NCBI GenBank assembly: GCA_963965975.1 | Contig: OZ014411.1 | Location: 25,155,249-25,219,248 of the forward strand | Length of the DNA: 64,000 bases | Origin: Xestospongia bergquistia | Taxonomy: Eukaryota; Porifera; Demospongiae; Haplosclerida; Petrosiidae | Direction: 5' to 3' | Shown: in pieces, positions 11,272 through 40,221 of the stretch | Position numbering within the stretch: the first letter of the stretch is position 1 | Layout of the letters: every line of letters starts with the position of its first letter | Made by a program: the position numbers and the translations under genes | The notes under the pieces: model-generated | The model's database searches: none | What the model saw: only the letters and a program-made list of their open reading frames with translations | What the model was told of the DNA's origin: nothing

Positions 11272-12122
11272 TTATTTAGTACATACAACACAAGTAATAA
11301 CCCTATTATCGACATAGGGAGGACATGGTAGACCAGTACAAGTTCCTTTGACAAAAAAGAACAGAGCAACATTGATATTACTAGAACTACCATAAATAGA
11401 CTCAGCATCTTTATCAACACACTCATATACAGCATTCCTATTATGATCATATTTTTCAGTCATGAGGTAACCTACATATTCTACAGTCCATGATGTAGGA
11501 CAGACAGTTTTAGCTGGTATCATTAGTTGAACAACTTTAGTAGAAGTATAACATACAGCACAAGGAACATTATGTTCATGTTTAGAAGAAAATATGTTGT
11601 TTACAAATTCATATTCAACTCCATACAAATAGGACTCTGCTGGTGGATTTGCAGTACTCATGTAATCAGGAACTTTAGGTAGACAGATATAATTAGCACC
11701 TCCACCACTGTGAGAGTAATGACTACCACCAGCTATTCCTTCATAAAGCAGCTGTGCTCCTGTGTTATTAGGACAAGACTTTCTACCCCATCGTGTGTAG
11801 ACTACACCACCATTTTTCGGTCCAGGTGGTCCTTGTTTACCACGATCTCCTTTGTCTCCTTTATCACCTTTGTCTCCTTTCTCACCATCTCTCCCAGGTA
11901 AGCCATCACGTCCATCTCGACCTCGTAAGATCTGTAGATAAGGATGTTTTAGAGAACAGTCAGTAGTGTTGGAGTCATGTGCATTTCGTTTCACCACAAC
12001 ATTATTAGAAGAATCTGAAATAAGATCAATAATGCTGTAACTTGATGTTATGATATCATACCTTTAGAAGACTGCATTAGATGAACAAGCAGAAGAAGTA
12101 AGAAGACTTGTAGAAGTTTCAT
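11272..12122 (-). CDS. Short-chain collagen C4-like, copy 2 (intact)
   Basis: Exons 12062-12122 and 11272-12014, 47-nt intron, 267 aa. Homologue of the sponge short-chain (spongin-type) collagen C4 described from Ephydatia muelleri; expected in the extracellular matrix. Layout: signal peptide 1-20; linker with an N-linked site (NTT) and one Cys; 12 Gly-X-Y triplets at about 52-87 (GRD, GDK and GPP types); then a C-terminal non-collagenous domain from VVYTRWGRKSC to ITCVVCTK with 10 Cys. The domain matches the C4 C-terminus in TRWGRKSCPNNTG, YLYG.EY, HNVPCAVCY, CPTSWT and GLPCPPY. Variable positions here: NPPAESYLYGVEYEFVN and MTEKYDHNRN. The start is the ATG giving the signal peptide; GTG at 11997 is internal. 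The helix is very short for a collagen. Confidence 0.93.
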
Positions 12123-12214
12123 CTTGTTATTATTATATATGATGAGAGATCAGTATGTCAGAAATGTAAGTCAATCCTTTTTGACTTTTGCAAATTTCTT
12201 ACTACATTTCAGAA

Positions 12215-12222
12215 CTTTTATA
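12215..12222 (-). promoter_or_regulatory. TATA box of collagen copy 2
   Basis: Minus-strand TATAAAAG, 93 nt upstream of the ATG at 12122. Confidence 0.6.
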
Positions 12223-13371
12223 GCCACAGTCAAATTCTACATTTTAATATATGGTATTTAAGTAATGTTTATACAATAACATTGACTATAAGTGTTAAAT
12301 GATTAAGGCAGGAAATGGTTGACACTGATAATTCAATGTTTTAGTTAATTGGTGTACTAGTAGTGTGGATCCTTTTCATTCCTAAACTTAAGCTAAATGT
12401 TGGTGCTAATGAATATAATTATTATATTATATAAGTTCTTTTGATGATAACTATATATAAGACACATCTATTATAAATTATGTACTAATATTATAGAAGT
12501 TACACCAAGAAGGACCATGTACTTGTTACTATAGAAACAACTCACTTCTATAAAGCATTGTCTCAAGTTGGTACAGACTTCTGAATGATGACACTTATAC
12601 TACCTAAGAGAACTCGTAAAGAACTTAAAGTAAGTAGTCTTGTGTATATATTAATGGTGATACTGAACCAAGCAATGTAGTGATCAATATATGATATTCT
12701 CATATAACATAATGTTGAATGTTACAAAATCAATTTTTATGATGAAGTTAGGTTTAAGCGTACTCACTTGCACTTTGTCATTATGTAATATGTTGACTGA
12801 GTACCCTAGAAAGTGTCTATTATAAATAACATTACTAACATGTTGAGAGGTGACTACATTTTTAACATTATATTTTTAAAAACTAACTAGGAAACAAACA
12901 GACTTGATAGCATTGTCCCAATAATAATTTTAAAAATACCCAATAAGAATTAAAAGGGATAGTGAGTATGTACATAAATACTTGTAATGTATAGTTTCTA
13001 GAAATCATTATAGTCAATTAAATGTCTTAGTACAGACTGCAGTCTCTACTCTCTACTAATCACAACATCTGTCAACACACTCACATGGTATGAAGGTTCA
13101 ATTCATTTTTAGTCTATGTAGTTGTATTAATTAATCTGTTGACAAAGTCACTCATTGAATTAACTTTGTTCATTCGCTATCATAAGTGGGGGATTAGTAT
13201 GAACAAAAGTTCTTGGACTTTGACTGGAAAATTTAGTTAAGTTGAGTATACAGACTTATGTCTTCATGTAGCAATGACAACTATCTCTATTCACTTCATA
13301 GACATAATGATAGGAAGAGTGAACCCTAGCCTATTGACAATGTCTACACAACATGTGTGGTAATATTGACC
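12223..13371 (+). pseudogene. BDP1-like fragment D (SANT part 2 only) and spacer
   Basis: One recognisable exon, 12535-12629, with correct splice sites but an in-frame TGA (GACTTCTGAATG where the intact copy has GACTTCACATTG). No other BDP1 exon is present before the next collagen fragment. The surrounding spacer is nearly identical to 23226-24373, including the same TGA, so the two blocks share a recent origin. Confidence 0.75.
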
Positions 13372-13664
13372 ATTTTTTGGTCCAGGTGGTCCTTGTTTAC
13401 CACAATCTCCTTTGTCTCCTTTCACACACTCGCTTCCAGGTAAACCATCACGTCCATCTCGACCTCATAAGATTTGTAGATAAGGATGCTTTAGAGTGCA
13501 GTCAGTAGTATTGGAGTCATGTGCATTTCATTTCACCACAACATTATTAGAAGAATCTGAAATAAGATCAATAATGCTGTAACTTGATGTTATGATATCA
13601 TACCTTTAGAAGACTGCATTAGATGAACAAGCAGAAATATCAAGAAGACTTGCACAAGTTTCAT
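13372..13664 (-). pseudogene. Collagen C4-like 5' fragment F1
   Basis: Signal-peptide exon (ATG at 13664), intron, linker and a shortened Gly-X-Y stretch remain; the C-terminal domain is gone and BDP1-intron-type sequence follows. The linker has CGA changed to TGA (CATAAGAT on the plus strand), and the TATA box upstream has decayed (ACTATCAG). The block from about 13299 is duplicated at 31437-31810. Confidence 0.85.
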
Positions 13665-14103
13665 CTTGTTATTATTATATATGATGACAAATCAGTATGT
13701 CAGAAATGTAAGTCAATCTTTCTTGACTTACATTTCTGGTATGTTTCAGAACTATCAGAGTCACAGTAACAGGGAGGTTAATTTGATGTGATAATTTACT
13801 AAATGTACATGTCATATCAATAACTTTAACACAACTTTCAAATGTCTAAGCATGGACTGCAGTGTCAATAGCAATATTATAAAGTTATTCAACTTTCCTA
13901 AAATAACAATACCCACTTCAAGTGATCTAATGTATTTAATGAGTGAATGATTGTATTGAATAGATGAATGAATAGATGGATCAGTGGATTTGATAAATGG
14001 AGAACAGATGAATACATGGTCAGACAGTCAGGTAAACAAACAGGTAGAGGAATATACAGGTTGTGGGAATGTATATAATTCCTTTGTAGTTACTTTTCCT
14101 TAG
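13665..14103. other. Spacer
   Basis: Array spacer with the GATGAATGAATAGATGGATC and GGTAGAGGAATATACAGG blocks that precede the BDP1 linker exon elsewhere. No gene seen. Confidence 0.5.
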
Positions 14104-15524
14104 TTCACTATACCAGTCAATGGAGGTAGGAGAGGTAGAAGATGAAGGTAGAATTGTACCACAGTTAAAAATTGGAGCTGATGGTAGTATACAACTTGAT
14201 GAAGCAAGGAACATGTACATGTATATAACATCTATAATATAATATAATTACTATATTGTTTATCATATTTTATAGTATGTTACTGGAAACTACACAGACA
14301 CCTCTTCAGAATATCAGGTATCATATAAATGTAGAAGAAGTATCACTTCTCAAATTGTTATATATCAAACTTGTACAAGGAATCCTCACTTGTATGCATC
14401 TGCTCAATTCAAAAGTTAGTATGTCTTGAGCTGGCTTACTCTGTTTAGTTACATTTTGAATTTTGTTATTCCATGATGGTTATATCTTAAGAATGTCTTT
14501 AAATGTTCTTTAGTAATGTTAATGTACATATAATACATATTATATGTACATATAATTATGTATGTACATTTTAGTTCATAATAGTCTCTTCTGTCTAGTG
14601 ACACAATTACTGAAGAAGGAACAGAGTATACAATGTCTACATCATTTAGAGAGAGGCACAAAATTAAGAAACGGACCAAAGATGGTGAGGTCTTAGAGTT
14701 GTACATAAAGATATCAACCTTGATATATATGGCTTCTTCAGTATTGTTTATATAATAGCATTGACTATAAGTGTTTAAGACAGGAAATTGTTGATACTGA
14801 TGATTCAATGTTTTGATTAATTAGTGTACTAGTAGTATGGATCCTTTTTATTACTAAACTTTAAACTAAATATTGGTGTTAATGAACCACTTTATAAGTT
14901 GTTTTGATGATAACTATATATAAGATACATCTATTCTAATATAAATTATATACTAATATTATTATATATACTTGTTGCTATAGAAACAACTCAGTTCTAT
15001 AAAGCATTGTCTCAAGTTGGTACAGATTTCACAATGATAACACTAATACTACCTAAGAGAACTCGAAAAGAACTCAAAGTAAATAATCTTGTGTATATAT
15101 TCATAAATGATATTATGGTTGTACTGGATCAAGTAATGTAATGATTAACACTGTACTCTCATATAACATAATCTTGAATTTTACAAAATCACTATTTTTT
15201 ATGATGAAGTTAGGTTTAACTGTACTCACTTGCACTTTGTAATATGTTGAGTACCCATCACTTTTAGGATTATATTACACAAAGGTTTCTCTGTATCCAT
15301 GGTTACACAAGCAATTTGTACCATAAAATAATATTTCATTAAATATATCATGACATGTATTTATTACTCTTTGTCAAAGATAATGACTCACTGTGATTAT
15401 AACAGTTTATGTTTCTGTTTAGAACAAATTCAAGAAAGAAGAAAATAATAATCCACTAAGAATATCTACTGCTTTAGAGAAACTGTGTACTACACCACTA
15501 AAGACAGCTTTAACATCATCTTAA
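14104..15524 (+). pseudogene. BDP1-like fragment E (all five 3' exons)
   Basis: Exons 14104-14208, 14276-14317, 14599-14684, 14984-15078 and 15423-15524 all keep their frame. This is the best preserved partial copy: the AG acceptor before 14104 is present and the last intron has been shortened to about 340 nt. Against function: the 5' exons are absent, the donor after 14208 is GAACATG instead of GTACATG, and the SANT tryptophan (KKWTKD) is KKRTKD (TGG to CGG). Transcribed or not, it cannot make the N-terminal part. Confidence 0.78.
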
Positions 15525-15996
15525 TTTGTAACATGATAACTTGATTAATTCAACATATATTACTTTTTATATTTAATAAATACTTCATTAAATCATTACT
15601 AATCAAACCACCTTTGTATCTCTATTTTGAACTGTTAACCAACCTCACTCTCTCTCTCTCTCTCTCTCTTGATATGGTAAAATCAAGAGATATTGGCTGC
15701 ACAAGACTAATTCACAGCCTTTGGTTGCTTTAATAGTAAAATGATAATGTGAACAGCAAGATAAATATCATTAATACACAATGATTATTAATTATAATGA
15801 TCAGATTAATTAATTTTGTGAAAGATCAATTCACTGACTTTTATGAAATGTTTTTATTATAAACCATTGTTAACAAGAAAATTATTGTTTAACCGATAGA
15901 ATTTACAAATCAATTCTAATGTTAATAAATTGGGTGGACATTACATAACTCAACTACTCATGATCATTTCATATAACAATACAGAATGAAAAAACA
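15525..15996. other. Convergent gap with CT tract and short hairpin
   Basis: (CT)n at about 15646-15670 followed by TCTCTTGA ... TCAAGAGA, an 8-bp stem. The rest is the usual AT-rich spacer with a probable minus-strand poly(A) signal. Confidence 0.5.
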
Positions 15997-16848
15997 TTAT
16001 TTAGTACATACAACACAAGTAATAACCCTATTATTGACATAGGGAGGACATGGAAGACCAGTACAAGTTCCTTGGACAAAATAGAACAGAGCACCATTGA
16101 TATTGCCAGAACTACCATAAATAGACTCAGCATCTTTATCAACACACTCATATACAGCATTCCTCTTATGATTATAATAGTCAGTCATGAGGTAACCTAC
16201 ATATTCTACAGTCCATGATGTAGGACAGACAGTTTTAGCTGGTATCATTAGTTGAACAATTTTAGTAGAAGTATAACATACAGCACAAGGAACATTATGA
16301 TCATGTTTAGAGGGAAATATGTTGTTTACATCTTAAATATTCAGCTCCATACAAATAGTCCTGATTTGGTGGATTGGCAGTACTCATGTAATCAGGAACT
16401 TTAGGCAAACAGAGATAGTTAGCACCTCCACCACTGTGAGTGTAATGACTACCTCCAGCTATTCCTTCATAAAGTAGCTGTACTCCTGTATTATTAGGAC
16501 AAGACTTTCTACCCCATCGTATGTAGACTACACCACCATTATTTGGTCCAGGTGGTCCTTGTTTGCCACGATCTCCTTTGTCTCCTTTATCACCTTTGTC
16601 TCCTTTTACACCATCTCTCCCAGGTAAGCCATCACGTCCATCTCGACCTCGTAAGATCTGTAGATAAGGATGTTTTAGAGTACAGTCAGTAGTGTTGGAG
16701 TCATGTGCATTTCGTTTCACCACAGCATTATTAGAAGAATCTGAAATAAGATCAATAATGCTGTAACTTGATGTTATGATATCATACCTTTAGAAGACTG
16801 CATTAGATGAACAAACAGAAGAAGCAAGAAGACTTGTAAAAGTTTCAT
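15997..16848 (-). pseudogene. Short-chain collagen C4-like, copy 3 (single frameshift)
   Basis: Exons 16788-16848 and 15997-16740 align with the intact copies over the whole length. One extra base near 16335 (CATCTTAAATATTC where other copies read CATCTTGATATTC) shifts the frame just after YLYGAEY, so translation would end at about residue 164. Downstream of this the sequence of the C-terminal domain is intact to ITCVVCTK. Splice sites and TATA box (16909-16916) are kept. It is a very young pseudogene, a sequencing error, or an allele; the surrounding homopolymer A run makes an error possible. Confidence 0.8.
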
Positions 16849-16908
16849 GTTGTTGAAATTTAAGTCAATCCTTATTGACTTTTGCAAATTTCTTACTACA
16901 TTTCGGTA

Positions 16909-16916
16909 CTTTTATA
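16909..16916 (-). promoter_or_regulatory. TATA box of collagen copy 3
   Basis: Minus-strand TATAAAAG, 61 nt upstream of the ATG at 16848. Confidence 0.55.
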
Positions 16917-17209
16917 GTCACAGTCAACTATTTCATTTTAATATATGGTATTTAAGTAATGATTACACAATAAATATCATTGACTATAAGTGTTAAATGA
17001 TTAAGGCAGGAAATGATTGATACTGATAATTCAATGTTTTAGTTAATTAGTGTACTAGTAGTGTGGATCCTTTTTACTACTAAACTTTAAACTAAAAATC
17101 GGTGCTAATAAACCACTTTATAAGTTGTTTTGATGATAACTGTATATAAGACACATTTATTCTAACATAAATTATGCACTAATATTATTATCTGTACTTG
17201 TTACTATAG

Positions 17210-18829
17210 AAACAACTCAGTTCTATAAAGCAATGTCTCAAGTTGGTACAGACTTCACAATAATGACACCAATACTATCTAAGAGAACTCGTAAAGTAAA
17301 TAATCTTGTGTATATATTAATAAATGATATGGTTATACTGAACCAAGTAATGTAATGATCAATACTGTACTCTCATATAACATTATGTTGAATTTACCAG
17401 ATCAATATTTTTATGATGAAGTTAGGTTTAAGTGGACTCACTTGCACTTTGTCATAATGTAATATGTTACTGAGCACCCTAGAAAGTGTCTATTATAAAT
17501 AACATTACTAACATTCTGAGAGGTGACTATATTTTTAACATTATATTTTGATGACATAACTTGGTAACAAACAGACTTGATTGTATTGTCCCTATAATCA
17601 TTTTTTAAAAATATCCATAAAAGGGATAGTTCATATGTACATGAATACTGGTACTGTATAGTTTCTAGAAGTCACTATAGTCAATCATATGTCTTAGTAC
17701 AGACAGCAGTCTCTACTAATCACAATATCTGTCAATATGATACTAATGTTCAGTTAATGGTCTATGTAGTTGTAGTAATTAATCTGTTGACAAAGTCACT
17801 AATTGAATTAACCTTGTCTATTCACTATCATAACTGGGGAATGACTATGAATGAAAGTTCTTGGACTTTGACTGGAAAATTTATCTAAGTTTAGTATACA
17901 GACTTATATCATCATGTAGCAATGACAACTGTGTATTCATGTCATAGACATAATGGCAGCTAGAGTCAACCCTAGCCTATTGACAATGTCTACACAACAT
18001 GTGTGGTAATATTAATTTTTCAACACACAATGACATGCTACCTTAAGGAACTGTTGACATGGTGCTTGTGTTAAAAATTACAAACAAGATGGAATCATAC
18101 ATGAGTCAATATTATAATTATTAACCAAAATATACAGCTCTGTCACTACCATTGCTGCCATCTTGTTCATAATTTCTAATATAGGTACCAAATTGGTCAA
18201 TTCCTGTTTAATATTAATGTCCTTGCAAATATATACTGTTGCCAATGTCTTATTTATTAGAGTGGAAGTAAGTTAAACAATCCAGTGTCTTTGCAATCTA
18301 GTAAAGCAATAAAATTTTAACTATTTGAGCCTTGTAACTAGAGAAAGAACACCAGATGCTTCAATAGTCTATGACTACACAGAGTTACTTCATCTTTGTT
18401 ACCCAGTGATTTACTAATTTCATTCTAATATTATATTATATTAATAGATACCACCTCTTTCACTCTAACACTTAATTTATATTACATTTGAATGTTACTA
18501 TTACTTCATTTCAAAGAAACAAAGATCCAAATCTATGTTTGTAACTAATTAAATTATATAAAGCAAGTTAAAGTAGTCTAACAACATATTGATACACAAC
18601 ATTTGTATTTACTAACATATAATGATGAAATTTGTGCGTCTAAATTTCCTAAATTCACTTTTATATACATCACTTTGGGGATTATATTACACAAACGTTT
18701 CTCTGTATCCATGGTTACACAAACAATTTGTGTTTGCCAAATTGTGGTTATGAGAAACCATCTAATCTATCCCATTAAATATCAGGACATATATTTATTA
18801 CTCTTTGTCAAAGATAATGACTCACTTAT
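17210..18829 (+). pseudogene. BDP1-like fragment F (SANT part 2 and intron only)
   Basis: Exon 17210-17295 lacks the last three codons (GAACTTAAA) in frame but has a donor (GTAAAT). It is followed by about 1.5 kb of the usual last-intron sequence. The terminal exon is missing: at about 18829 the intron runs directly into the middle of collagen copy 4, the mark of a deletion of about 800 bp. Confidence 0.75.
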
Positions 18830-19481
18830 GATCATAATAGCTAGTCATGAGGTAAACTTTATATTCTATTTAGTGGTATCATTAGTTGAACAACTTTTGT
18901 AGAAGTATAACATACAGCACAAGGAACATTGTGATCAAATTTAGAAGGAAATATGTTGTTTACCTCTTGATATTCAGCTCCATACAAATAGGACTGTGTT
19001 GCTGGATTGGCAGTACTCATGTCATCAGGAACTTTAGGTAGACAGATATAATTAGCACCTCCACCACTGTGAGTGTAATGACTACCACCAGCTATTCCTT
19101 CATAAAGCAGCTGTGCTCCTGTGTTATTAGGACAAGACTTTCTACCCCATCATGTGTAGACTACACCACCATTTTTCAGTCCAGGTGGTCCTTGTTCACC
19201 ATGATCTCCTTTGTCTCCTTTATCACCTTTGTCTCCTTTCACACCATCTCTCCCAGGTAAACCATCACGTCCATCTCGACCTCGTAAGATCTGTAGATAA
19301 GGATGTTTTAGAGTACAGTCAGTAGTGTTGGAGTCATGTGCATTTCGTTTCACCACAGCATTATTAGAAGAGTCTGAAATAAGATCAATAATGTTGTAAC
19401 TTGATGTTATGATATCATACCTTTAGAAGACTGCATTAGATGAACAAGCTGAAGAAGTAAGAAGACTTGTAGAAGTTTCAT
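18830..19481 (-). pseudogene. Short-chain collagen C4-like, copy 4 (truncated)
   Basis: Exon 1 at 19421-19481 and exon 2 from 19373 downwards. The last third of the C-terminal domain has been removed: near 18830 collagen sequence (TTATGATCATAATAGCTAGTCATGAGG) is fused to BDP1 intron sequence (AGATAATGACTCAC), and a further stretch coding for the CPTSWTVEY region is missing near 18870. There is also a TGA in place of the CGA arginine codon of TRWGRK (19147-19149). The promoter box at 19574-19581 survives. Confidence 0.85.
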
Positions 19482-19573
19482 CTTGTTATTATTATATATG
19501 ATGAGAAATCAGTATGTCAGAAATATAAGTCAATCCTTTTTGACTTTTGCAAATTTCTTACTTCATTTCAGAA

Positions 19574-19581
19574 CTTTTATA
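19574..19581 (-). promoter_or_regulatory. TATA box of collagen copy 4
   Basis: Minus-strand TATAAAAG, 93 nt upstream of the ATG at 19481. Confidence 0.5.
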
Positions 19582-19712
19582 GTCACAGTAAACTTCTAAA
19601 TTTAATACATGGTATTTAAGTATTGTTTATATAATAACATTGACTATAAGTGTTAAATGATTAAGGCAGGAAATGGTTGACACTGATAATTCAATGTTTT
19701 AGTTAATTGGTG

Positions 19713-19892
19713 AACTGAGTTGTTTCTATAGTAACAAGTACAGACTATTATATTAGTACATAATTTATATATTAGAATAGATGCATCTTATATATAATTA
19801 TCATCAAAACAACTTATATAATGTTATAATGGTTCATTAACACCAACATTTAATTTAAAGTTTAGCAATAAAAAGGATCCATACTACTAGTA
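19713..19892. other. 180-bp micro-inversion
   Basis: Reverse-complementing 19713-19892 restores the sequence seen in every other unit: GGTG then TACTAGTAGTATGGATCC ... ACTATAGAAACAACTCAGTT then CTATAAAGCATTG. The breakpoints are clean to the base, with no inserted sequence. Confidence 0.85.
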
Positions 19893-22274: not shown

Positions 22275-23125
22275 TTATTTAGTACATACAACACAAGTAA
22301 TAACCCTATTATTGACATAGGGAGGACATGGTAGACCAGTACAAGTTCCTTTGACAAAATAGAACAGAGCACCATTGATATCACCAGAACTACCATCAAT
22401 AGACTCAGCATCTTTATCAACACACTCATATACAGCATTCCACTTATGATCATAATAGTCAGCCATGAGGTAACCTACATATTCTACAGTCCATGATGTA
22501 GGACAGACAGTTTTAGCTGGTATCATTAGTTGAACAACTTTAGTAGAAGTATAACATACAGCACAAGGAACATTATGATCATGTTTAAAAGGAAATATGT
22601 TGTTTACATCTTGATATTCAGCTCCATACAAATAGGACTGTGCTGTTGGATTTGCAGTACTCAAGTAATCAGGAACTTTAGGTAGACAGATATAATTAGC
22701 ACCTCCACCACTGTGAGTGTAATGACTACCACCAGCTATTCCTTCATAAAGTAGCTGTGCTCCTGTGTTATAATTACAAGACTTTCTACCCCATCGTGTA
22801 TAGACTACACCACCTTTTTTTGGTCCAGGTGGTCCTTGTTTACCACGATCTCCTTTGTCTCCTTTATCACCTTTGTCTCCTTTCACACCATCTCTCCCAG
22901 GTAAACCATCACGTCCATCTCGACCTCGTAAGATCTGTAGATAAGGATGTTTTAGAGTACAGTCAGTAGTGTTGGAGTCATGTGCATTTCGTTTCACCAC
23001 AACATTCTTAGAAGAATCTGAAATAAGATCAATAATGTTGTAACTTGATGTTATGATATCATACCTTTAGAAGACTGCATTAGATGAACAAGCTGAAGAA
23101 GTAAGAAGACTTGTAGAAGTTTCAT
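22275..23125 (-). CDS. Short-chain collagen C4-like, copy 5 (intact)
   Basis: Exons 23065-23125 and 22275-23017, 267 aa, same domain order as copy 2. Differences that stand out: the signal peptide core has LLQLVHL where others have LLLVHL; the segment after TRWGRKSC reads NYNTGAQ, losing the NNT glycosylation site; GPKKGG replaces GPKNGG at the end of the helix; the variable patches are NPTAQSYLYGAEYQDVN with FKHDHN, and MADYYDHKWN. All 10 C-terminal-domain Cys are present. The spacer behind it is almost the same as that behind copy 2. Confidence 0.93.
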
Positions 23126-23217
23126 CTTGTTATTATAATATATGATGAGAAATCAGTATGTCAGAAATATAAGTCAATCCTTTTTGACTTTTGCAAATTT
23201 CTTACTTCATTTCAGAA

Positions 23218-23225
23218 CTTTTATA
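23218..23225 (-). promoter_or_regulatory. TATA box of collagen copy 5
   Basis: Minus-strand TATAAAAG, 93 nt upstream of the ATG at 23125. Confidence 0.6.
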
Positions 23226-24373: not shown

Positions 24374-24685
24374 CAATTTTTTGGTCCAGGTGGTCCTTGT
24401 TTACCACGATCTCCTTTGTCTCCTTTATCATCTTTGTCTCCTTTCACACCATCTCTCCCAGGTAAGCCATCATGTCCATCTTGACCTTGTAAGATCTGTA
24501 GATAAGGATGTTTTGGAGTACAGTCAGTAGTGTTAGAGTCATGTACATTTCGTTCACCACAACATTATTAGAAGAATCTGAAATGAGATCAATAATGTTG
24601 TAACTTGATGTTATGATATCATACCTTTAGAACACTACATTAGATGAACAAGCAGAAAAAGTAAGAAGACTTGTAGAAGTTTCAT
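24374..24685 (-). pseudogene. Collagen C4-like 5' fragment F2
   Basis: Signal-peptide exon with ATG at 24685, the intron, and linker plus Gly-X-Y part of exon 2; the C-terminal domain is absent. The linker has a base deletion (CGTTCACC where others have CGTTTCACC). Immediately upstream of the ATG, from about 24690, the sequence switches to BDP1 intron, so the promoter is lost. Confidence 0.8.
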
Positions 24686-26464
24686 CTTGTTATCTTGTTG
24701 AATTAACTAAATAAATATTTATTTTAGTGTACTCACTTTATAATATGTTGACTTGAGTACACTACAATTTGTCTACTAAAATGACATTACCAATTCATTC
24801 TGAGAGCTAACTGCCTCTTTAACATAACATTTTGCTGACATAACTAGGAAGCAATTGGACTTGAGTGTCTATTATAGTGTCTATTATAAATAACATTACT
24901 AACATTCTGAGAGGTGACTATATTTTTAACATTACATTTTGATGACATAACTAGGAAACAAACAGAGTTGATTGTATTGTCCTAATAATCATTTTTAAAA
25001 TATTCAAAACGAATTAAAAGGGATAGTTCATATGTACATAAATACTGGTACTCTATAGTTTCTAGAAGTCACCATAGTCAATCAAATGTCTTAGTACAGA
25101 CAGCAGTCTCTAGTAATCACAACACCTATCAATATGCACACATGATACTAATGTTCAATTCATTTTTAGTCAATGGTCTATGTATTTGTAGTAATTAATC
25201 TGTTGACAAAATCACTAATTGAATTAACCTTATCTATTCACTATCATAACTGGGGAATGACTACGAATGAAAGTTCTTGGACTTTGACTGGAAAATTTAT
25301 TTAAGTTGAGTATACAGATTGATATCATCATGTAGCAATGACAACTGTGTATTCATGTCATAGACATAATGGCTACAAGAGTCAACCCTAGCCTATTGAC
25401 AATGTCTACACAACATGTGTAGTAATATAAATTTTCCACACACTGCTACCTTAATGGAACTGTTGACATGGGTGCCTATGTTAGAAATTACAAACAAGAT
25501 GGAATCATACATGAGTCACATATTATAATTATTAACCAAACTACACAGCTCTGTCACTACCATTACTGCCATCTTGTTCATAATTTCTAATATAGGTACC
25601 AAATTGGTCAATTCCTGTTTAAAATTAAAAACCCTTTGTCCTTGCAATTATTGTTAGCAATGTCTTATTTATTAGTGTGGAAGTAAGCTAAACCATCCAG
25701 TGTCTTTCCAATCTAGTACAGCAATAACATTTTAACTATTTGAGCCTTGTAACTAGAGAAAGAACATCAGATGCTTCAATGTCCAATGACTAGTTGACTA
25801 CACAGAGTTACTTCACCTTTGTTACTTAGTGATTTGCTAATTTCATTCTAATACTATATTATATTATATTATATATTAATAGATACCACCTCTATTCACT
25901 CTGACGCTTAATTTATATTATATTTGAATATTAATATTACTTCATCTCAAAGATCCAAATCTATCTTGTAACTAGTTGTATCTTTTGTTTTATATGAAGC
26001 AAGTTAAAGTAGTTCAACAACACATTGATACTCAATATTTGTATTTATTAACATATAATCATGAAATTACAGTGATTATTATACATCTTTCTTGACTCAA
26101 ATGTTACCTCAAGAATTATTCAATAAATCAGAGAGCTCTTTAAATATGAAAAACTTTTGTGTGTTTAAATTTCCTAAATTCACTTTTATATATATCATTT
26201 CGGGGATTATATTACACCTGTGTTTCTCTGTATCCATGGTTACATGAGCATTTTGTGTTTGCAAAATTTGTGGTTATAAGAAACCATCTAATAATATAAG
26301 GACATGTATTTATTATTCTTTGTTTATTACTCACTGATTATAACACTATATATTTCTGTTTAGAATAAATTCAAGAAAGAAGAAAAAATAATCCACTAAG
26401 AATATCTACTGCTTTAGAGAAACTGTGTACTACACCACTAAAGACAGCTTTAACATCATCTTAA
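24686..26464 (+). pseudogene. BDP1-like fragment H2 (last intron and terminal exon)
   Basis: About 24705-24860 matches the last intron of the intact BDP1 copy (9265-9425), then the sequence switches to the intron type of the other units with a short repeat (AGTGTCTATTATAGTGTCTATTATA). The terminal exon at 26364-26464 is one base short (GAAAAAATAATCC where the intact copy has GAAAAGAATAATCC), which shifts its frame. No coding use is expected. Confidence 0.72.
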
Positions 26465-26600
26465 TTTGTAACATGGTAACTTGATTAATTCAACATGAAT
26501 TATATTTTATATTTAGCAAATACTTTATTAAATCATTACTATTCAAACCACCTTTGTACCTCTATTTTGTACTGTTAAAGTCTAGTGTAGCCAACCTCTC

Positions 26601-26655
<55 letters not shown>

Positions 26656-26940: not shown

Positions 26941-27791
26941 TTATTTAGTACATACAACACAAGTAATAACCCTATTATTGACATAGGGAGGACATGGAAG
27001 ACCAGTACAAGTTCCTTTGACAAAATAGAACAGAGCACCATTAACGTCGCCAGAACTACCATCAATAGACTCAGCATCTTTATCAACACACTCATATACA
27101 GCATTCCCCTTATGACCATAATGGCTAGTCATGAGGTAACCTTTATATTCTACAGTCCATGATGTAGGGCAGACAGTTTTAGCTGGTATCATTAGTTGAA
27201 CAACTTTAGTAGAAGTATAACATACAGCACAAGGAACATTATGTTCATGTTTAGAAGGAAATATGCTGTTTACATTTTCGTATTCAGCTCCATACAAATA
27301 GGACTCATATGGTGGATTGGCAGTACTCATGTAATCAGGAACTTTAGGTAGACAGATATAATTAGCACCTCCACCACTGTGAGTGTAATGACTACCACCA
27401 GCTATTCCTTCATAAAGCAGCTGTGCTCCTGTGTTATTAGGACAAGACTTTCTACCCCATCGTGTATAGACTACACCACCATTTTTTGGTCCAGGTGGTC
27501 CTTGTTTACCACGATCTCCTTTGTCTCCTTTATCACCTTTGTCTCCTTTCTCACCATCTCTCCCAGGTAAGCCATCACGTCCATCTCGACCTCGTAAGAT
27601 TTGTAGATAAGGATGTTTTAGAGTACAGTCAGTAGTGTTAGAGTCATGTGCATTTCGTTTCACCACAACATTATTAGAAGAATCTGAAATAAGATCAATA
27701 ATGTTGTAACTTGATGTTATGATATCATACCTTTAGAAGACTGCATTAGATGAACAAGCAGAAAAATCAAGAAGACTTGTAGAAGTTTCAT
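26941..27791 (-). CDS. Short-chain collagen C4-like, copy 6 (intact)
   Basis: Exons 27731-27791 and 26941-27683, 267 aa. All features of the family are present: signal peptide, NTT site and Cys in the linker, 12 Gly-X-Y triplets (with GEK in the fifth), and 10 Cys in the C-terminal domain. This copy is the most divergent in the second variable patch: YKGYLMTSHYGHKGN where most copies have YVGYLMAxYYDHKRN. In the first it has NPPYESYLYGAEYENVNSIF. It also has SIDGSSGDVNG. Such replacements sit beside unchanged blocks (HNVPCAVCYTSTKVVQLMIP, GLPCPPYVNNRVITCVVC). Confidence 0.93.
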
Positions 27792-27872: not shown

Positions 27873-27880
27873 CTTTTATA
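27873..27880 (-). promoter_or_regulatory. TATA box of collagen copy 6
   Basis: Minus-strand TATAAAAG, 82 nt upstream of the ATG at 27791. Confidence 0.6.
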
Positions 27881-30560: not shown

Positions 30561-31409
30561 TTATTTAGTACATACAACACAAGTAATAACCCTATTATTG
30601 ACATAGGGAGGACATAGTAGACCAGTACAAGTTCCTTTGACAAAATAGAACAAAGCACCATTGATATTACTAGAACTACCATAAATAGACTCAGCATCTT
30701 TATCAACACACTCATATACAGCATTACTCTTATGACTGTGATAATCAACCATGAGGTAACCTACATATTCTACAGTCCATGATGTAGGACAGACAGTTTT
30801 AGCTGGTATCATTAGTTTAACAACTTTAGTAGAAATGTAACATACAGCACAAGGAACATTATGATCATGTTTAGAAGAAAATATTTTGTCCACCTCTTGA
30901 TATTCAGCTCCATACAAATAGGACTGTGTCCTGGATTGGCAGTACTCATGTAATCAGGAACCTAGGCAAACAGATATAATTAGCACCTCCACCACTGTGA
31001 GAGTAATGACTACCACCAGCTATTCCTTCATAAAGCAGCTGTACTCCTGTAGTTTTAGGACAAGACTTTCTACCCCATCGTGTATAGACTACACCACCAT
31101 TTTTTGGTCCAGGTGGTCCTTGTTTACCACGATCTCCTTTGTCTCCTTTATCACCTTTGTCTCCTTTCACACCATCTCTCCCAGGTAAGCCATCACGTCC
31201 ATCTCGACCTCGTAAGATCTGTAGATAAGGATGTTTTAGAGTACAGTCAGTAGTGTTGGAGTCATGTGCATTTCGTTTCACCACAGCATTATTAGAAGAA
31301 TCTGAAATAAGATCAATAATGCTGTAACTTGATGTTATGATATCATACCTTTAGAAGACTGCATTAGATGAACAAACAGAAGAAGCAAGAAGACTTGTAA
31401 AAGTTTCAT
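30561..31409 (-). pseudogene. Short-chain collagen C4-like, copy 7 (frameshifted, promoter lost)
   Basis: Exons 31349-31409 and 30561-31301. Two single-base losses lie close together, near 30930 (GACTGTGTCCTGG) and near 30961 (GGAACCTAGGC for GGAACTTTAGGC), so translation would leave the frame after YICLP. The downstream domain is otherwise recognisable to the end. Just upstream of the ATG the promoter block is cut at CTTATTGACT and joined to spacer plus fragment F3, so no TATA box is present. The 5' end matches copy 3 (same KLLQVF coding bases, same ATGTTGTTG leader), pointing to a shared parent. Confidence 0.82.
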
Positions 31410-31512
31410 GTTGTTGAAATTTAAGTCAATCCTTATTGACTTCATAGACATAATGATAGGAAGAGTGAACCCTAGCCTATTGACAATGTCTACACAACAT
31501 GTGTGGTAATAT

Positions 31513-31810
31513 TGACCATTTTTTGGTCCAGGTGGTCCTTGTTTACCACAATCTCCTTTGTCTCCTTTCACACACTCGCTTCCAGGTAAACCATCACGTC
31601 CATCTCGACCTCATAAGATTTGTAGATAAGGATGCTTTAGAGTGCAGTCAGTAGTATTGGAGTCATGTGCATTTCATTTCACCACAACATTATTAGAAGA
31701 ATCTGAAATAAGATCAATAATGCTGTAACTTGATGTTATGATATCATACCTTTAGAAGACTGCATTAGATGAACAAGCAGAAAAAATAAGAAGACTTGTA
31801 GAAGTTTCAT
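31513..31810 (-). pseudogene. Collagen C4-like 5' fragment F3
   Basis: Duplicate of fragment F1 (including the TGA in the linker): signal-peptide exon with ATG at 31810, intron, linker, shortened helix. In contrast to F1 it has a normal TATA box (31892-31899), so it may be transcribed, perhaps through into copy 7 behind it. Confidence 0.82.
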
Positions 31811-31891
31811 CTTGTTATTATTATATATGATGAGAAATCAGTATGTCAGAAATGTAAGTCAAGCCTTAAAATTTCTTACTACATTTCGGAA

Positions 31892-31899
31892 CTTTTATA
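31892..31899 (-). promoter_or_regulatory. TATA box upstream of fragment F3
   Basis: Minus-strand TATAAAAG, 82 nt upstream of the F3 ATG at 31810. Confidence 0.5.
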
Positions 31900-32202
31900 G
31901 TCACAGTCAACTTCTATATTTTAATGTAATTATGGTATTTAAGTAATGTTTATACAATATCATTGACTATAGGTGTTCAAATGATTAAGGCAGGAAATGA
32001 TTGATACTGATAATTCAATGTTTTAGTTAATTAGTGTACTAGTAGTATGGATCCTTTTTATTACTAAACTTTAAACTAAATGTTGGTGCTAATGAATCAT
32101 TATTACATTTATATAAGTTGTTTTGATGATAACTATATATAAGACACATCTATTCTAATATAAATTATATACTAATATTACTATCTGTACTTGTTACTAT
32201 AG

Positions 32203-34071: not shown

Positions 34072-34521
34072 TATGTAACATGATAACTTCAACATGTATT
34101 ACATTTTATATTTAACAAATACTTCATTAAATCATTACTAATCAAACCACCTTTGTACCTCTATTTTGAACTGTTGTAGTCTAGTATAGCCAACCTCTCT
34201 CCCTCTCTTACTCTTGATGGTAATATCACACACAAGACTAGTTCACAGCCTTTGGTAATGATAATGTGAACAGGAAGATAAATTTCATTAATACAAAATG
34301 GTTATTAATTTATAATAATCAGATTAATAATGTAAAAGATCAATTCACTGACTTGTATCAAATTATTTTCAGGTTTATTATAAACCATTATTAACAAGAA
34401 AATTATCAAAAATTATTGTTTAACTGATAGAATTTACAAATCAATTATAATGTTAATAAATTGGGTGGACATTACATAACTCAACTACTCATTTTATATA
34501 ACAATACAGAATGAAAAAACA
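34072..34521. other. Convergent gap
   Basis: Short CT-rich run at about 34194-34210, then AT-rich spacer as in unit A. No hairpin of the 30216 type. Confidence 0.5.
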
Positions 34522-35372
34522 TTATTTAGTACATACAACACAAGTAATAACCCTATTATTGACATAGGGAGGACATGGAAGACCAGTACAAGTTCCTTTG
34601 ACAAAATAAAACAGAGCACCATCAATACCGCCAGAACTACCATAAATAGACTCAGCATCTTTATCAACACACTCATATACAGCATTCCTCTTATGATCAT
34701 AATATTCAACCATGAGGTAACCTACATATTCTACAGTCCATGATGTAGGACAGACAGTTTTAGCTGGTATCATTAGTTGAACAACTTTAGTAGAAGTATA
34801 ACATACAGCACAAGGAACATTATGATTATGTTTAGAAGGAAATATGTTGTTTACATTTTCGTATTCAGCTCCATATAAATAGTCCCCATACTGTACATTT
34901 GCAGTACTCATGTAATCAGGAACTTTAGGTAGACAGATATAATTAGCACCTCCACCACTGTGAGTGTAATGACTACCACCAGCTATTCCTTCATAAAGTA
35001 GCTGTGCTCCTGTGTTATTAGGACAAGACTTTCTACCCCATCGTGTATAGACTACACCACCATTTTTTGGTCCAGGTGGTCCTTGTTTACCACGATCTCC
35101 TTTGTCTCCTTTATCACCTTTGTCTCCTTTCACACCATCTCTCCCAGGTAAGCCATCACGTCCATCTCGACCTCGTAAGATCTGTAGATAAGGATGTTTT
35201 AGAGTACAGTCAGTAGTGTTGGAGTCATGTGCATGTCGTTTCACCACAACATTATTAGAAGAATCTGAAATTAGATCAATAATGCTGTAACTTGATGTTA
35301 TGATATCATACCTTTAGAAGACTGCATTAGATGAACAAGCAGAAAAAGTAAGAAGACTTGTAGAAGTTTCAT
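34522..35372 (-). CDS. Short-chain collagen C4-like, copy 8 (intact)
   Basis: Exons 35312-35372 and 34522-35264, 267 aa. The domain order and 10 C-terminal-domain Cys are as in the other intact copies. Replacements: VKRHAHD for VKRNAHD in the linker; first variable patch NVQYGDYLYGAEYENVN, where the usual NPP is lost entirely; second patch MVEYYDHKRN; SIYGSSGGIDGALF. Exon 1 codes for VFLLFLLVHLMQSSK. Splice sites and TATA box are normal. Confidence 0.93.
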
Positions 35373-35453
35373 CTTGTTATTATTATATATGATGAGAAAT
35401 CAGTATGTCAGAAATGTAAGTCAATCCTTCAATTTTCTTACTACATTTCGGAA

Positions 35454-35461
35454 CTTTTATA
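35454..35461 (-). promoter_or_regulatory. TATA box of collagen copy 8
   Basis: Minus-strand TATAAAAG, 82 nt upstream of the ATG at 35372. Confidence 0.6.
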
Positions 35462-35761
35462 GTCACAGTCAGCTTCTACATTTTAATATATGGTATTTAA
35501 GTAATGTTTATACAATATCATTGACTATAGGTGTTCAAATGATTAAGGCAGGAAATGATTGATACTGATAATTCAACGTTTTAGTTAATTAGTGTACTAG
35601 TAGTATGGATCCTTTTTATTACTAAACTTTAAACTAAATGTTGGTGCTAATGAATCATTATTACATTAATATAAGTTGTTTTGATGATAACTGTATATAG
35701 ATAGACACATCTATTCTAATATATTATGTACTAATATTATTATCTATACTTGTTACTATAG

Positions 35762-35856
35762 AAACAACTCAGTTCTATAAAGCATTGTCTCAAGTTGGTA
35801 CAGACTTCACAATGATGACAGTAATACTTCCTAAGAGAACTCTTAAAGAACTTAAA
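35762..35856 (+). pseudogene. BDP1-like fragment K (SANT part 2 exon)
   Basis: A single 95-nt exon in frame with good splice sites; PKRTRKELK has become PKRTLKELK. About 70 bp downstream the sequence jumps to the 393-bp repeat block, so no terminal exon belongs to it. Confidence 0.75.
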
Positions 35857-35928
35857 GTAAATAATCTTGTGTATATATTCATAAATGATATAGTTATACT
35901 GGACCAAGTAATGTAATGATCAATAATG

Positions 35929-37190
35929 GCAATATTGTAAAGATATTCAACTTTCCTACTTAGATCACCTAAAGAAACAATCCCCACTTCAAGTGATCTA
36001 ATGTACTCGATGAGTGAATGGTTTTATTGATAGATGAATGAATAGATGGATCAGTGGATTTGATAAATGGAGAACAGATAAACACATGGTCAGACAGTCA
36101 GGTAAACAAACAGGTAGAGGAATGTACAGGTTGTGGGAATAATAACTTTCAAATGTCTAAGTGCAAACATTACTTTGATGTGATGTAATCACAGTAACTA
36201 GCAGTTACTTTGATGTGATGTAGTCAAAGTAACTAGAAGTTACTTTGATGTGATATTTTACTACATGTACATGCCATATCACACAGCTTTCAAATGTCTA
36301 AGTGCAGACTGCTGTCTAGTGACAATATAGTAAAGATATTCAACTTTCCTACTTAGATCACCTAAAGAAACAATCCCCACTTCAAGTGATCTAATGTACT
36401 CGATGAGTGAATGGTTTTATTGATAGATGAATGAATAGATGGATCAGTGGATTTGATAAATGGAGAACAGATGAACACATGGTCAGACAGTCAGGTAAAC
36501 AAACAGGTAGAGGAATGTACAGGTTGTGGGAATAATAACTTTCAAATGTCTAAGTGCAGACATTACTTTTATGTGATGTAATCACAGTAACTAGCAGTTA
36601 CTTTGATGTGATGTAGTCAAAGTAACTAGATGTTACTTTGATGTGATAATTTACTACATGTACATGTCATATCACACAGCTTTCAAATGTCTAAGTGCAG
36701 ACTGCTGTCTAGTGACAATATAGTAAAGATATTCGACTTTCCTACTTATATCACATAAAAAACAATCCCCACTTTAAGTGATCTAATCTAACATAGTATG
36801 AAACATAATAAGTAACATAAGTAACACAACTTTCAAATGTCTAAGTGTAGATGTTACTTTGATGTGATGTAGTCACAGTAACTAGAAGTTACTTTGATGT
36901 GATAATTTACTACATGTACATGTCTTATCAATAACTAACACGACTTGAATATCATAAAGATACTCAACTTTCCTACTTAGATCACCTAAAGAGACAATCC
37001 TCACTTCAACTGATGCAATGTATTCGATGAGTGAATGGTTTTATTGAATAGATGAATGAATAGATGGATCAGTGGGTTTGATAAATGGAGAATGGATAAA
37101 CACATGGTCAGACAGTCGGGTAAACAAACAGGTAGAGGAATATACAGGTTGTGGGAATGTATATAATTCCTTTGTAGTTACTTTTCCTTA
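35929..37190. repeat. Tandem repeat of about 393 bp (two good copies and a diverged third)
   Basis: Copies start at about 35931, 36323 and 36717 (CAATATxGTAAAGATATTC). Each holds AGATCACCTAAAGAAACAAT, GATGAATGAATAGATGGATC, GGTAGAGGAATGTACAGG and two or three of the partly self-complementary 35-bp units with GTTACTTTGATGTGATG. The block corresponds to the intron sequence before the BDP1 linker exon. Confidence 0.75.
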
Positions 37191-37191
37191 A

Positions 37192-38887
37192 TTCACTAGA
37201 CCAGTCAATGGAGCTAGAAGATGTAGAGGATGAAGATAGAATGGTACCACAATTAAAAATTAGAGCTAATGATAGTATCCAATTTCATGTACCAACGTAT
37301 ATGTACATGTATATAACATCTACAATATAATTAACTACTGTATTGGTTATCATATTTTATAGTATGTTAGTGGAAGCTACACAGACACCTCTTCATAATA
37401 TCAGGTATCATATAAATGTAGAAGAAGTATCACTTCTCAAATTGTTATATATCAATCTTGTACAAGGAATCCTCACTTGCATGCATCTACTCAATTCAAA
37501 TTTTAGTATACATTTACATTTTGAACTTTGGTGTTCCATGATGGCTACATCTTAAGAATGTCTTTAAATGTTCTTTAGTAATGTCAATGTACATATTATA
37601 CATATACATATGTTCATATAATACATGTGTATATATATATATATTATGTATATTATAATACATACATGTGTACAGATAATATGTAAATATAATTCATAAG
37701 TATGTACATATTATATGTACATTATAATACACATATGTATATATGTACAGATAATATGTAAATATAATTCATAAGTATGTACATATTATATGTACATTAT
37801 AATACACATATGTATATATGTACAGATAATATGTAAATATAATATATATATATATATATATATGGATATATGGATAGATAGATAGATATATATATGTACA
37901 TATAATTATGTATGTACATTTTAGTTCATAATAGTATTTTTTGTCTAGTGACACAATCACTGAAGGAGGAACAGAATATACAATAATCTCTAACATAGGT
38001 ACTCCATTGGTCAATTCCTGTTCCAATATTAAACACCCTTTTTCCTTGCAATTACTTTGCTAATGTCTTATTTATTAGAGTGGAAGTAAACTAAACCATC
38101 CATTCTCTTTGTAATCCAGTACAACAATAGAATTTTAACTATTTGAGCTTACGTATTGCTTTTAACTAGAGAAAGAACACCAGATGCTTCAATGACCTAT
38201 GACTACACATTCATCTTTGTTTGCTCAGTGATTTATTAATTTCATTCTAATACTATATTATATAAATTGGTACCACTTCTATTCACTTTGACCCTTAATT
38301 TAAATTACATTTGAATATTACTATTACTTCATCTCAAAGAAGCAAAGATCCAAATCTATCTTTGTAATTAGTTGTATCATTTGTTTTATATGAAGTAAGT
38401 TAAAGTAGTCCAACAACATATTGATACACAATATTTGTATTTACTAACATATAATAATGAAATATCAACCTACAGTGATGGTTATACATCTTTCTTGACT
38501 CAAATATTACCTCTAGAAATATTCAATAAATCAGAAAGCTCTTTAAATCTGAAAAAACGTTTCTGTGTTTAAATTTCCTAAATTCACTTTTATATTCATC
38601 ACTTTGGGGACTATATTACACAATAGTTTCTCTGTATCCATGGTTACATGAGGAATTTGTGTTGCAAAATTTGTGGTTATAAGAAACCATCTGATGATAT
38701 CCCATTAAATATCGTGACATGTATTTATTATTCTTTGTCAAAGATAATGACTCACTGTGATTATAACAGTTTATATTTCTGTTTAGAATAAATTCAAGAA
38801 AGAAGAAAAAATAATCCACTAAGAATATCTACTGCTTTAGAGAAACTGTGTACTACACCACTAAAGACAGCTTTAACATCATCTTAA
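37192..38887 (+). pseudogene. BDP1-like fragment L (linker exons, cut SANT part 1, terminal exon)
   Basis: Linker exon 37192-37296 (3' end decayed), 42-nt exon 37363-37404, and the first 35 bases or so of SANT part 1 from 37949. These are then fused near 37984 to last-intron sequence (ATAATCTCTAACATAGG), so the rest of SANT part 1 and all of part 2 are deleted. The terminal exon 38787-38887 is one base short. AT-rich repeats occupy about 37590-37910. Confidence 0.78.
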
Positions 38888-39370
38888 TTTGTAACATGAT
38901 AACTTCAACATGTATTGCATTTTATATTTAACAAATACTTCATTGAATCATTACTAATCAAACCACCTTTGTACCTCTATTTTTAACTGTTAACCAACCT
39001 CACTCTCTCTCTCTCTTTCTCTCTTGATATGGTAATATCAAGAGAGACTAGCTGCACAAGACTAATTCATAGCCTTTGGTTGCTTTAATAGTAAAATGAT
39101 AATGTTAACATTCAAGATAAATGTCATTAATACACAATGATTATTAATTTATAATGATGAGATTAATTAATTTTGTGAAAGATCTATTCTCTGACTTGTA
39201 TGAAATTATTTTCAGTTTTATTATAAAATATTGTTAGCAAGAAAATCATCAAAAATTATTATTGTTTACCTGATAGATGTTATTAATCAATTATAATGTT
39301 AATAAATTGAGTGGACATTACATAATACAACTACTCATTTTATATAACAATACAGAAGAAAAAAAAAACA
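38888..39370. other. Convergent gap with strong hairpin
   Basis: A 12-bp stem with GGTA loop at 39019-39046 (CTCTCTTGATAT / ATATCAAGAGAG), after a CT tract; then spacer with a probable minus-strand poly(A) signal. Confidence 0.6.
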
Positions 39371-40221
39371 TTATTTAGTACATACAACACAAGTAATAAC
39401 CCTATTATTGACATAGGGAGGACATGGTAGACCAGTACAAGTTCCTTTGACAAAATAGAACAAAGCACCATTGATGTCGCCAGAACTACCATAAATAGAC
39501 TCAGCATCTTTATCAACACACTCATATACAGCATTCCTATTATGATCATAATATTCAGCCATGAGATAACCTACATATTCTATAGTCCATGATGTAGGGC
39601 AGACAGTTTTAGCTGGTATCATTAGTTGAACAACTTTTGTAGAAGTATAACATACAGCACAAGGAACATTATGATCATGTTTAGAAGGAAATATGTTGTT
39701 TACATCTTGATATTCAGCTCCATACAAATAGTCCTGACTTGGTGGATTGGCAGTACTCAAGTAATCAGGAACTTTAGGTAGACAGATATAATTAGCACCT
39801 CCACCACTGTGAGTGTAATGACTACCACCAGCTATTCCTTCATAAAGTAGCTGTGCTCCTGTGTTATTAGGACAAGACTTTCTACCCCATCGTGTATAGA
39901 CTACACCACCATTTTTTGGTCCAGGTGGTCCTTGTTTACCACGATCTCCTTTGTCTCCTTTATCACCTTTGTCTCCTTTCACACCATCTCTCCCAGGTAA
40001 GCCATCACGTCCATCTCGACCTCGTAAGATCTGTAGATAAGGATGTTTTAGAGTACAGTCAGTAGTGTTGGAGTCATGTACATTTCGTTTCACCACAACA
40101 TTATTAGAAGAGTCTGAAATAAGATTAATAATGTTGTAACTTGATGTTATGATATCATACCTTTAGAAGACTGCATTAGATGAACAAGCAGAAAAATCAA
40201 GAAGACTTGTAGAAGTTTCAT
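39371..40221 (-). CDS. Short-chain collagen C4-like, copy 9 (intact, last of the array)
   Basis: Exons 40161-40221 and 39371-40113, 267 aa. Domain order is as in copy 2. Replacements: VKRNVHD in the linker, VPDYLSTANPPSQDYLYG and YQDVN in the first variable patch (closest to copies 3 and 5), WTIEYVGYLMAEYYDHNRN in the second. All 10 C-terminal-domain Cys are kept. Beyond its promoter (40314-40321) the array ends and a different minisatellite begins, so this is the edge copy. Confidence 0.93.

Follow-up and report, generated by a model that had tools for sequence, protein, structure and literature searches.

EmC4-type, or spongin short-chain, collagens, a family reportedly named SSCR by Aouacheria et al. 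in 2006, consist of a short Gly-X-Y stretch followed by a C-terminal NC1 domain. This domain has seven cysteines in common with collagen IV and three of its own, and the HSQ motif is absent (PMC5395295). We analyzed a stretch of 64,000 nucleotides (the window; C1:25155249-25219248) of the genome of the sponge Xestospongia bergquistia, which comprises 146 Mb in 21 contigs. The window contains a minus-strand tandem array of a two-exon short-chain collagen gene with five intact and several broken copies, whose NC1 domains are nearly identical except for a few short hypervariable patches. With 12 Gly-X-Y triplets and a conceptual length of 267 amino acids according to the exon coordinates, these proteins differ markedly from collagen IV chains, which are few and long, with a collagenous domain of about 1400 residues and a 7S domain. 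Diversifying selection on a face of the NC1 domain that forms trimers and hexamers, giving rise to self-sorting networks of short-chain collagens, is the explanation that we would tentatively choose first, although we rate it slightly below an even chance.

The structure of the gene is conceptual, as read from the genomic sequence, and the same layout could be aligned in eight array copies. Exon 1 encodes a hydrophobic leader, recognized by eye in the array copies and representing a putative signal peptide; it is followed by an intron of 47 bp (GT..AG), and exon 2 encodes one cysteine, 12 Gly-X-Y triplets and an NC1 domain of 179 residues. The patch peptides that a preliminary description of the window had quoted for two patches (P1 and P2 below) were indeed found in all five intact copies, in one frame and at one domain length. 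The intact copies are organized as follows.
11272-11997, 22275-23000, 26941-27666, 34522-35247 and 39371-40096, minus strand: open reading frames of the five intact copies (list of open reading frames, translation)
39371..40113, minus strand: copy I39, exon 2, with the NC1 domain at 39374-39910 and then a stop codon (open reading frame, translation, acceptor TTTCAG read)
40114-40160, minus strand: copy I39, intron, 47 bp, GT..AG (by eye)
40161..40221, minus strand: copy I39, exon 1, encoding the putative signal peptide MKLLQVFLIFLLVHLMQSSK (by eye)
39731..39757, minus strand: copy I39, P1, STANPPSQD (translation, alignment)
39533..39559, minus strand: copy I39, P2, AEYYDHNRN (translation, alignment)
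34522..35264, minus strand: copy H34, exon 2 (open reading frame; offsets transferred from I39)
35312-35372, minus strand: copy H34, exon 1 (offsets transferred from I39)
34882..34908, minus strand: copy H34, P1, STANVQYGD, which diverges most among the P1 alleles of the cluster (translation)
34684..34710, minus strand: copy H34, P2, VEYYDHKRN (translation)
26941..27683, minus strand: copy F26, exon 2 (open reading frame, translation)
27731-27791, minus strand: copy F26, exon 1 (alignment)
26944-27480, minus strand: copy F26, NC1 domain, reference for the numbering of residues 1-179 (translation)
27301..27327, minus strand: copy F26, P1, STANPPYES (translation, alignment)
27103..27129, minus strand: copy F26, P2, TSHYGHKGN (translation, alignment)
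22275..23017, minus strand: copy E22, exon 2 (open reading frame; offsets as in I39)
23065-23125, minus strand: copy E22, exon 1 (offsets as in I39)
22635-22661, minus strand: copy E22, P1, STANPTAQS (translation)
22437-22463, minus strand: copy E22, P2, ADYYDHKWN (translation)
11272..12014, minus strand: copy B11, exon 2 (open reading frame; offsets as in I39)
12062-12122, minus strand: copy B11, exon 1 (offsets as in I39)
11632-11658, minus strand: copy B11, P1, STANPPAES (translation)
11434-11460, minus strand: copy B11, P2, TEKYDHNRN (translation)

The near-identity outside the patches noted in the preliminary description was borne out by pairwise comparison of eight array copies (including the five intact window copies; short segments were aligned separately), which differ per base by 0.200 in P1 and 0.204 in P2 and by only 0.032 in the NC1 domain outside the patches. 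Instead of two patches there are, however, at least four or five, namely P0 (residues 31-35), P1 (52-60), P1b (65-71, continuing as P1b/P4 to residue 79), P2 (118-126) and P3 (143-147), and positions 51, 110 and 113 near them are variable as well. At the nucleotide level changes pile up at P1 and P2, and divergence amounts to 0.071 in P0, 0.122 in P1b and 0.207 in P3. The N-terminal/Gly-X-Y part, the signal exon and the intron differ by only 0.023, 0.034 and 0.038, respectively, and the 3' flank (first 400 bases) by 0.107. P1, P2 and P3 thus exceed the 3' flank nearly two to one, and P1b does so slightly. That the gene is more homogeneous than its flank is expected with gene conversion and purifying selection. 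Just upstream of exon 1 the copies differ by 0.09-0.13 in one long alignment that is bad far upstream, and we therefore do not claim homogenization of the promoter.

The genome contains at least 153 stretches matching this family, many of them in tandem clusters; the array runs on beyond the window, and a second group with opposite orientation is located at 24.83-24.85 Mb. We fetched 104 of these loci and retained 99 full-length domains (95 distinct proteins), dropping five partial ones. Five clusters separated by tree and genomic place (W, the window cluster, with 11 copies; C11 with 12; C8b with five sequences; C8a and C1m) make up 63 of the 99 domains, and the other 36, consisting of near-duplicates, the deleted copy L022 and thinly sampled groups, were excluded from the clusters. 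The window copies C16, D18 and G30 were excluded from every selection test. Much the same segments vary in all five clusters, though not each segment everywhere (P2 hardly varies in C8a), and variability correlates in 10 out of 10 pairs of clusters (Spearman 0.19-0.56), which by itself is also expected from shared structural tolerance. In a chosen list of variable positions H, Q, D, S and N are enriched, and L, I, M, V, G and C are depleted. Twelve Gly-X-Y triplets are present in each of the 11 window-cluster copies; among all 99 members the exon read gave 10-16 triplets in 76, three to four in five, 22, 45 and 46 in three, and none in 15. Among the records listed in searches of the open-licence literature, none describes diversified or positively selected short-chain collagens. 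Separately, we observed copies that are identical or nearly so at C8:6156505-6163189 (L025, L026, L030) and at C1:13151497-13594442 (L048, L054-L056), which were either duplicated very recently or produced by the assembly.

Changes in the patches had been described as largely amino-acid changing, and for P1 and P2 of the window cluster this holds: the Nei-Gojobori proportions of nonsynonymous (pN) and synonymous (pS) differences are 0.224 and 0.139 (pN/pS 1.61) in these two patches and 0.024 and 0.060 (0.40) at non-patch codons. It does not hold without restriction, since pS is raised too (0.139 inside P1 and P2 versus 0.071 outside) and P3 changes largely silently. Other patches exceed a pN/pS of 1 elsewhere, P0 in C11, C8b and C1m, and P1b in C8a and C8b. 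We then compared the site models M1a and M2a using our own implementation with F3x4 frequencies, in which multi-nucleotide changes, known to inflate site-model tests, are left out, and three trees (all sites, non-patch sites, star). A positive class with an omega of 4-11 was obtained in four of the five clusters. Twice the log-likelihood difference (2dlnL) was 41.1, 53.9 and 70.5 in W with the all-site, non-patch and star tree, respectively (p 1e-9 to 5e-16), 22.1, 27.3 and 34.2 in C8a with the three trees (p 1.6e-5 to 4e-8), 20.5 in C11 with two trees (p 3.5e-5) and 64.7 in C1m with one tree (p 9e-15); for the N-terminal half of W, which contains P1, it was 31.9. Sites with P > 0.95 are 58, 60, 69 and 119 in W (all three trees; 113 also with the star tree), 58, 120 and 122 in C1m, 122 in C11, and 33 and 150 in C8a (three trees), where 32, 52, 54, 143 and 144 are added in some runs.

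Recombination, which inflates such tests, is indicated in all four clusters tested (C8b was left out; permutation p 0.033, 0.005, 0.001 and 0.001). We therefore simulated W 16 times under a null with recombination and no positive selection (M1a, four segment trees); the highest value obtained was 11.7, compared with 40.9 observed by the same procedure. The P1 core is kept with a differing P2 in four copy pairs, and P2 is kept with a differing P1 core in one. Three P2 alleles occur together with PPAES and two with PPYES, MTSYYDHKR is found with two P1 alleles, and re-pairing is also seen between two array groups located about 300 kb apart. In total, the 11 window-cluster copies carry eight P1-core and ten P2 alleles in 11 distinct combinations. 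No donor is apparent among the fetched copies that lie outside the cluster, as their closest P1 core deviates at 4-8 of 15 bases and their closest P2 at 6-9 of 27.

The domain is an NC1 of the spongin short-chain collagen type, and its fold relation to the collagen IV NC1 is well supported. Gly-X-Y directly precedes the C-terminal NC1 domain, each of the ten cysteine columns is kept in 98-99 of the 99 domains, and the HSQ motif is present in only one. A structure prediction from nine sequences reached a mean predicted local distance difference test score (pLDDT) of 56.7 and a predicted template modeling score (pTM) of 0.54, with pLDDT below 50 at most patches; the 39 best Protein Data Bank (PDB) matches of this model in Foldseek are all collagen IV NC1 domains (best E 8.2e-5, 13 at E<=0.001, TM about 0.4). 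A further prediction, in which a bacterial sequence took the lead, reached a pLDDT of only 44.1 and was not used. Sequence comparison was less informative. Using hhalign against seven collagen IV NC1 domains, the segment C.VC...CP..W....GY aligned with an E of 0.0018 over 32 columns at a probability of only 15%, and nothing useful aligned in the global run. None of 20 members matched Pfam C4 (PF01413) at E<=10, and when the domain or a profile of 20 rows was compared with Pfam and with PDB sequences, only the Gly-X-Y part or noise was obtained; a PF01413 search of the sponge genome itself gave no match either, but the control was likewise empty, so that this search is not usable. The family shares the fold and the CP..LY.G and C.VC anchors with collagen IV NC1 but has no Pfam C4 match, and in the alignment HSQ, Met93, Lys211 and the loop's extra pair of cysteines are absent. 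From the spongin short-chain collagens, with which it shares the short Gly-X-Y stretch plus NC1, the ten cysteines and the missing HSQ, it differs in being very large, in having 10-16 triplets in most members and in the strong diversification of a few loops.

In collagen IV, SM1 (residues 37-45) and SM1' (144-154) face the central tunnel, and residues 62-77 form the chloride-binding loop; SM1, SM1' and SM2 play a key part in determining protomer formation, contact between protomers requires the chloride loop, the L-beta7'-beta8' loop and SM3', and Met93 of SM3 participates in a cross-link (PMC6211539). The short loop 74-78 coordinates chloride, and Arg76 turns toward the opposite trimer (PMC6527180). 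Bacterial and collagen IV sequences were included in alignments by three MAFFT strategies, all of which place P0 at NC1 residues 41-45, P1 at 65-67 and 75-80, P1b at 85-91 and P2 at 144-152. Alignment of P0, P1, P1b and P2 to SM1, the chloride loop, the Met93 loop and SM1', respectively, is therefore supported, with a residue mapping that appears good near the anchors and poor in the last third, where MAFFT misplaces the sequence; we thus make no claim on the placement of P3. Of the 20 most variable aligned sites within residues 1-129, ten fall in the numbered motifs, compared with 18 of the 105 others (Fisher p = 0.0028); for the window cluster only, the figures are nine of 20 and 19 of 105 (p = 0.012), and after widening the motifs by residues 78-104, a widening of our own, 18 of 20 and 33 of 105. 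Chain-recognition work by Khoshnoodi is said to have addressed a variable region, VR3. This region is not mentioned in the accessible portions of a review (PMC12562938).

It had been suggested that the patches diversify a binding face for matrix assembly partners or for self-recognition. The location of P0, P1, P1b and P2 on collagen IV assembly loops lends specific support to the former, and the argument for the latter is one of analogy. Clustered protocadherins and Dscam are homophilic codes in which, as might be the case here, a standard scaffold with variable pairing surfaces provides a repertoire; the proteins are unrelated, and like-with-like pairing could be transferred to the sponge collagens only by this analogy. 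If matrix self-sorting is correct, a standard secreted scaffold would have been copied in tandem and kept uniform by gene conversion, which may also have reshuffled docking-loop alleles among the copies. Diversifying selection would have targeted the specificity of contacts between chains and between trimers, so that a given copy, or set of copies, would prefer certain partners, and the animal could build many parallel self-sorting short-chain collagen networks. A more far-reaching version, in which conversion shuffles the patch alleles and about 100 or more short-chain collagens constitute a combinatorial NC1 docking code that joins matching partners only, provides each individual or tissue with a set of self-sorting matrix networks of its own and possibly serves as an identity label, seems unlikely to us.

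Several observations weigh against matrix self-sorting. Loops vary in most protein families, and an overlap with assembly loops is thus partly expected; P0 of the window array (0.071) diverges less than the 3' flank (0.107), and for P3, which changes mainly at silent sites in the window cluster (pN 0.143, pS 0.484), no position on collagen IV could be assigned. In an alignment with COL4A1 that is unreliable in the C-terminal third, the collagen IV docking residues, which include those of the sulfilimine bond and the chloride switch, are missing from 19 out of 19 members: positions 93, 179 and 211 lie in gaps, and Arg76, Asp78 and Glu175 occur in none, so that the trimers, if they dock at all, do so differently. 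A dN/dS above 1 at the patch codons, which the preliminary description had named as a check, was found in the window cluster, where M2a exceeds the recombination null, but not throughout. C8b yielded a 2dlnL of 0 and no positive class with any of the three trees, and the C-terminal half of W, containing P2, is not significant when analyzed alone (2dlnL 5.4, omega 1.95, p = 0.067; sites from this run were not used), which makes the support for P2 weaker than that for P1. For P1 and P2 as a block, pN/pS is below 1 in the other four clusters (C11 0.86, C8a 0.30, C8b 0.93, C1m 0.49). At 36 sites picked from the respective other four clusters it is close to 1 (W 1.05, C11 1.21, C8a 0.79, C8b 1.39, C1m 0.82; 0.26-0.58 outside these sites), and only C8b exceeds 1 with a bootstrap P just under 0.05 (0.048). 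Finally, all 12 members of cluster C11 (G000:C11:928260-1039485; L078, L084, L089 and others) have no Gly-X-Y in the exon read and yet vary at the same loops, which a role in collagen assembly does not predict.

This last observation, together with the very short stalk, makes secreted recognition proteins the strongest rival and one to be taken seriously, although we consider it rather less likely than not to be correct. The collagens would then be short trimeric stalks with globular heads, whose loops are diversified by outside partners such as microbes or symbionts. The 76 members with 10-16 triplets are closer in this respect to the defence collagens C1q, collectins and ficolins, which have a short trimeric collagen stalk and a globular head of a fold unrelated to NC1, than to fibres; a cysteine (TTDC) precedes the stalk in nine of the 11 window-cluster copies, and C11 accounts for 12 of the 15 members without visible Gly-X-Y. 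On the other hand, the collagen IV loops are directed toward neighbouring chains or the opposite trimer and would hardly be reachable by outside ligands once a hexamer has formed, and we know of no ligand of a spongin NC1. In adult Amphimedon there is a rise in short-chain collagens and likewise in the cadherin and scavenger-receptor families (PMC3447736), which fits matrix assembly and recognition alike. It is improbable that the patches are labels of self/non-self or tissue compatibility, with individuals differing in their alleles and reading each other's collagens. A tandem multi-allelic family with recombined loops and polar variable sites would suit such labels, and collagen deposition is among the features of sponge graft rejection; the same grafting study, as far as its accessible parts show, found no significant enrichment for cell-adhesion genes (PMC5450542), and the idea would have to be built on a single genome.

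Two further explanations dispense with diversification of a binding face. Under relaxed constraint the loops would tolerate change and be free to drift, with purifying selection and conversion holding the remainder of the domain. A pN/pS near 1 at the cross-chosen sites, the raised pS in P1 and P2 and the lack of a positive class in C8b are all in keeping with drift; nevertheless we regard it as quite unlikely, as the divergence of P1 and P2 in the window array is nearly double that of the noncoding 3' flank and five times that of the intron, four clusters have an M2a class with omega 4-11, and the simulations without positive selection remained far below the observed value. Least probable of all appears a supply of patch sequence by conversion from diverged paralogues or by targeted hypermutation, with selection being secondary. 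Several adjacent bases change together, as judged by eye, pS is raised in the patches, and recombination was detected, as such a supply would have it. However, none of the fetched copies qualifies as a donor given the distances of their P1 cores and P2 segments, and the changes are by eye not limited to one base; no search for a template repeat was made. Matrix self-sorting thus remains our first choice.

Relatives of the domain exist in bacteria. A scan of bacterial and archaeal genomes revealed three homologues in assemblies that are labelled Myxococcales, Deltaproteobacteria and Eisenbacteria, with 44-47% identity over the full length of the domain. In one protein, L114 (GC 72%), the NC1 domain is preceded by 54 Gly-X-Y triplets, and among 377 genomes of the same phylum seven contain a match, including the genomes of L113 and L114 (G001, G002); one match is a piece of 44 residues. 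Proteins on bacterial contigs (L113, L115, L119-L124) end in an NC1 domain that is 26-61% identical to that of L114. As NC1 follows Gly-X-Y also in L119 (41 triplets) and L122 (12 triplets), these two and L114 represent bacterial short-chain collagens. In a tree of 26 rows, the animal rows, all from the sponge genome studied here, form one clade (100/99), which with a midpoint root, itself insecure, lies inside the bacterial rows. No candidate on viral contigs encodes a relative, and none was found in phages. Collagen IV is treated as absent from the unicellular sister groups of animals (PMC5395295), where no mention of bacteria was seen, and none of the papers listed in our literature searches reports a bacterial NC1 domain of this type.

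Apart from the intact genes, the window array includes the following broken copies and fragments.
4034..4633, minus strand: copy A04, frame open, most Gly-X-Y and the NC1 start deleted in frame (open reading frame, alignment)
15997..16723, minus strand: copy C16, frameshift in NC1 (translation, alignment)
18862..19356, minus strand: copy D18, stop codon, NC1 truncated (translation, alignment)
30561..31284, minus strand: copy G30, frameshifts before and within the P1 region (translation, alignment)
1..132, minus strand: next array copy (locus L011), 5' part of its exon 2, with the remainder located outside the window (translation, genome matches)
13354..13539, 24376-24555 and 31500-31685, minus strand: 5' fragments of copies (translation)

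An Rfam search of the window gave no match. At about 26330-26540, 400-600 bases 3' of the stop codon, a stretch differs by 2.5% among eight copies, compared with about 11% in the flank before it; it belongs to the array repeat, with 12 matches all located inside the window array. A unit of 136 bases is repeated in tandem 6.6 times at 40345-41240, just upstream of copy I39. Another unit of 393 bases is present 2.2 times (97% matches) at 35930-36787 and holds 35-base repeats that are palindrome-like by eye; repeats of this kind are also found at 5186-5300.

The choice of chains is a central and partly open problem for collagen IV, with only six chains in humans. Scores of close paralogues, with differences mainly at the matching loops, would represent a natural mutational scan of NC1 specificity, and the homologous bacterial domains bear on the origin of this module of the animal matrix. 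For sponges, diversified short-chain collagens are a candidate route to diversify extracellular interactions.

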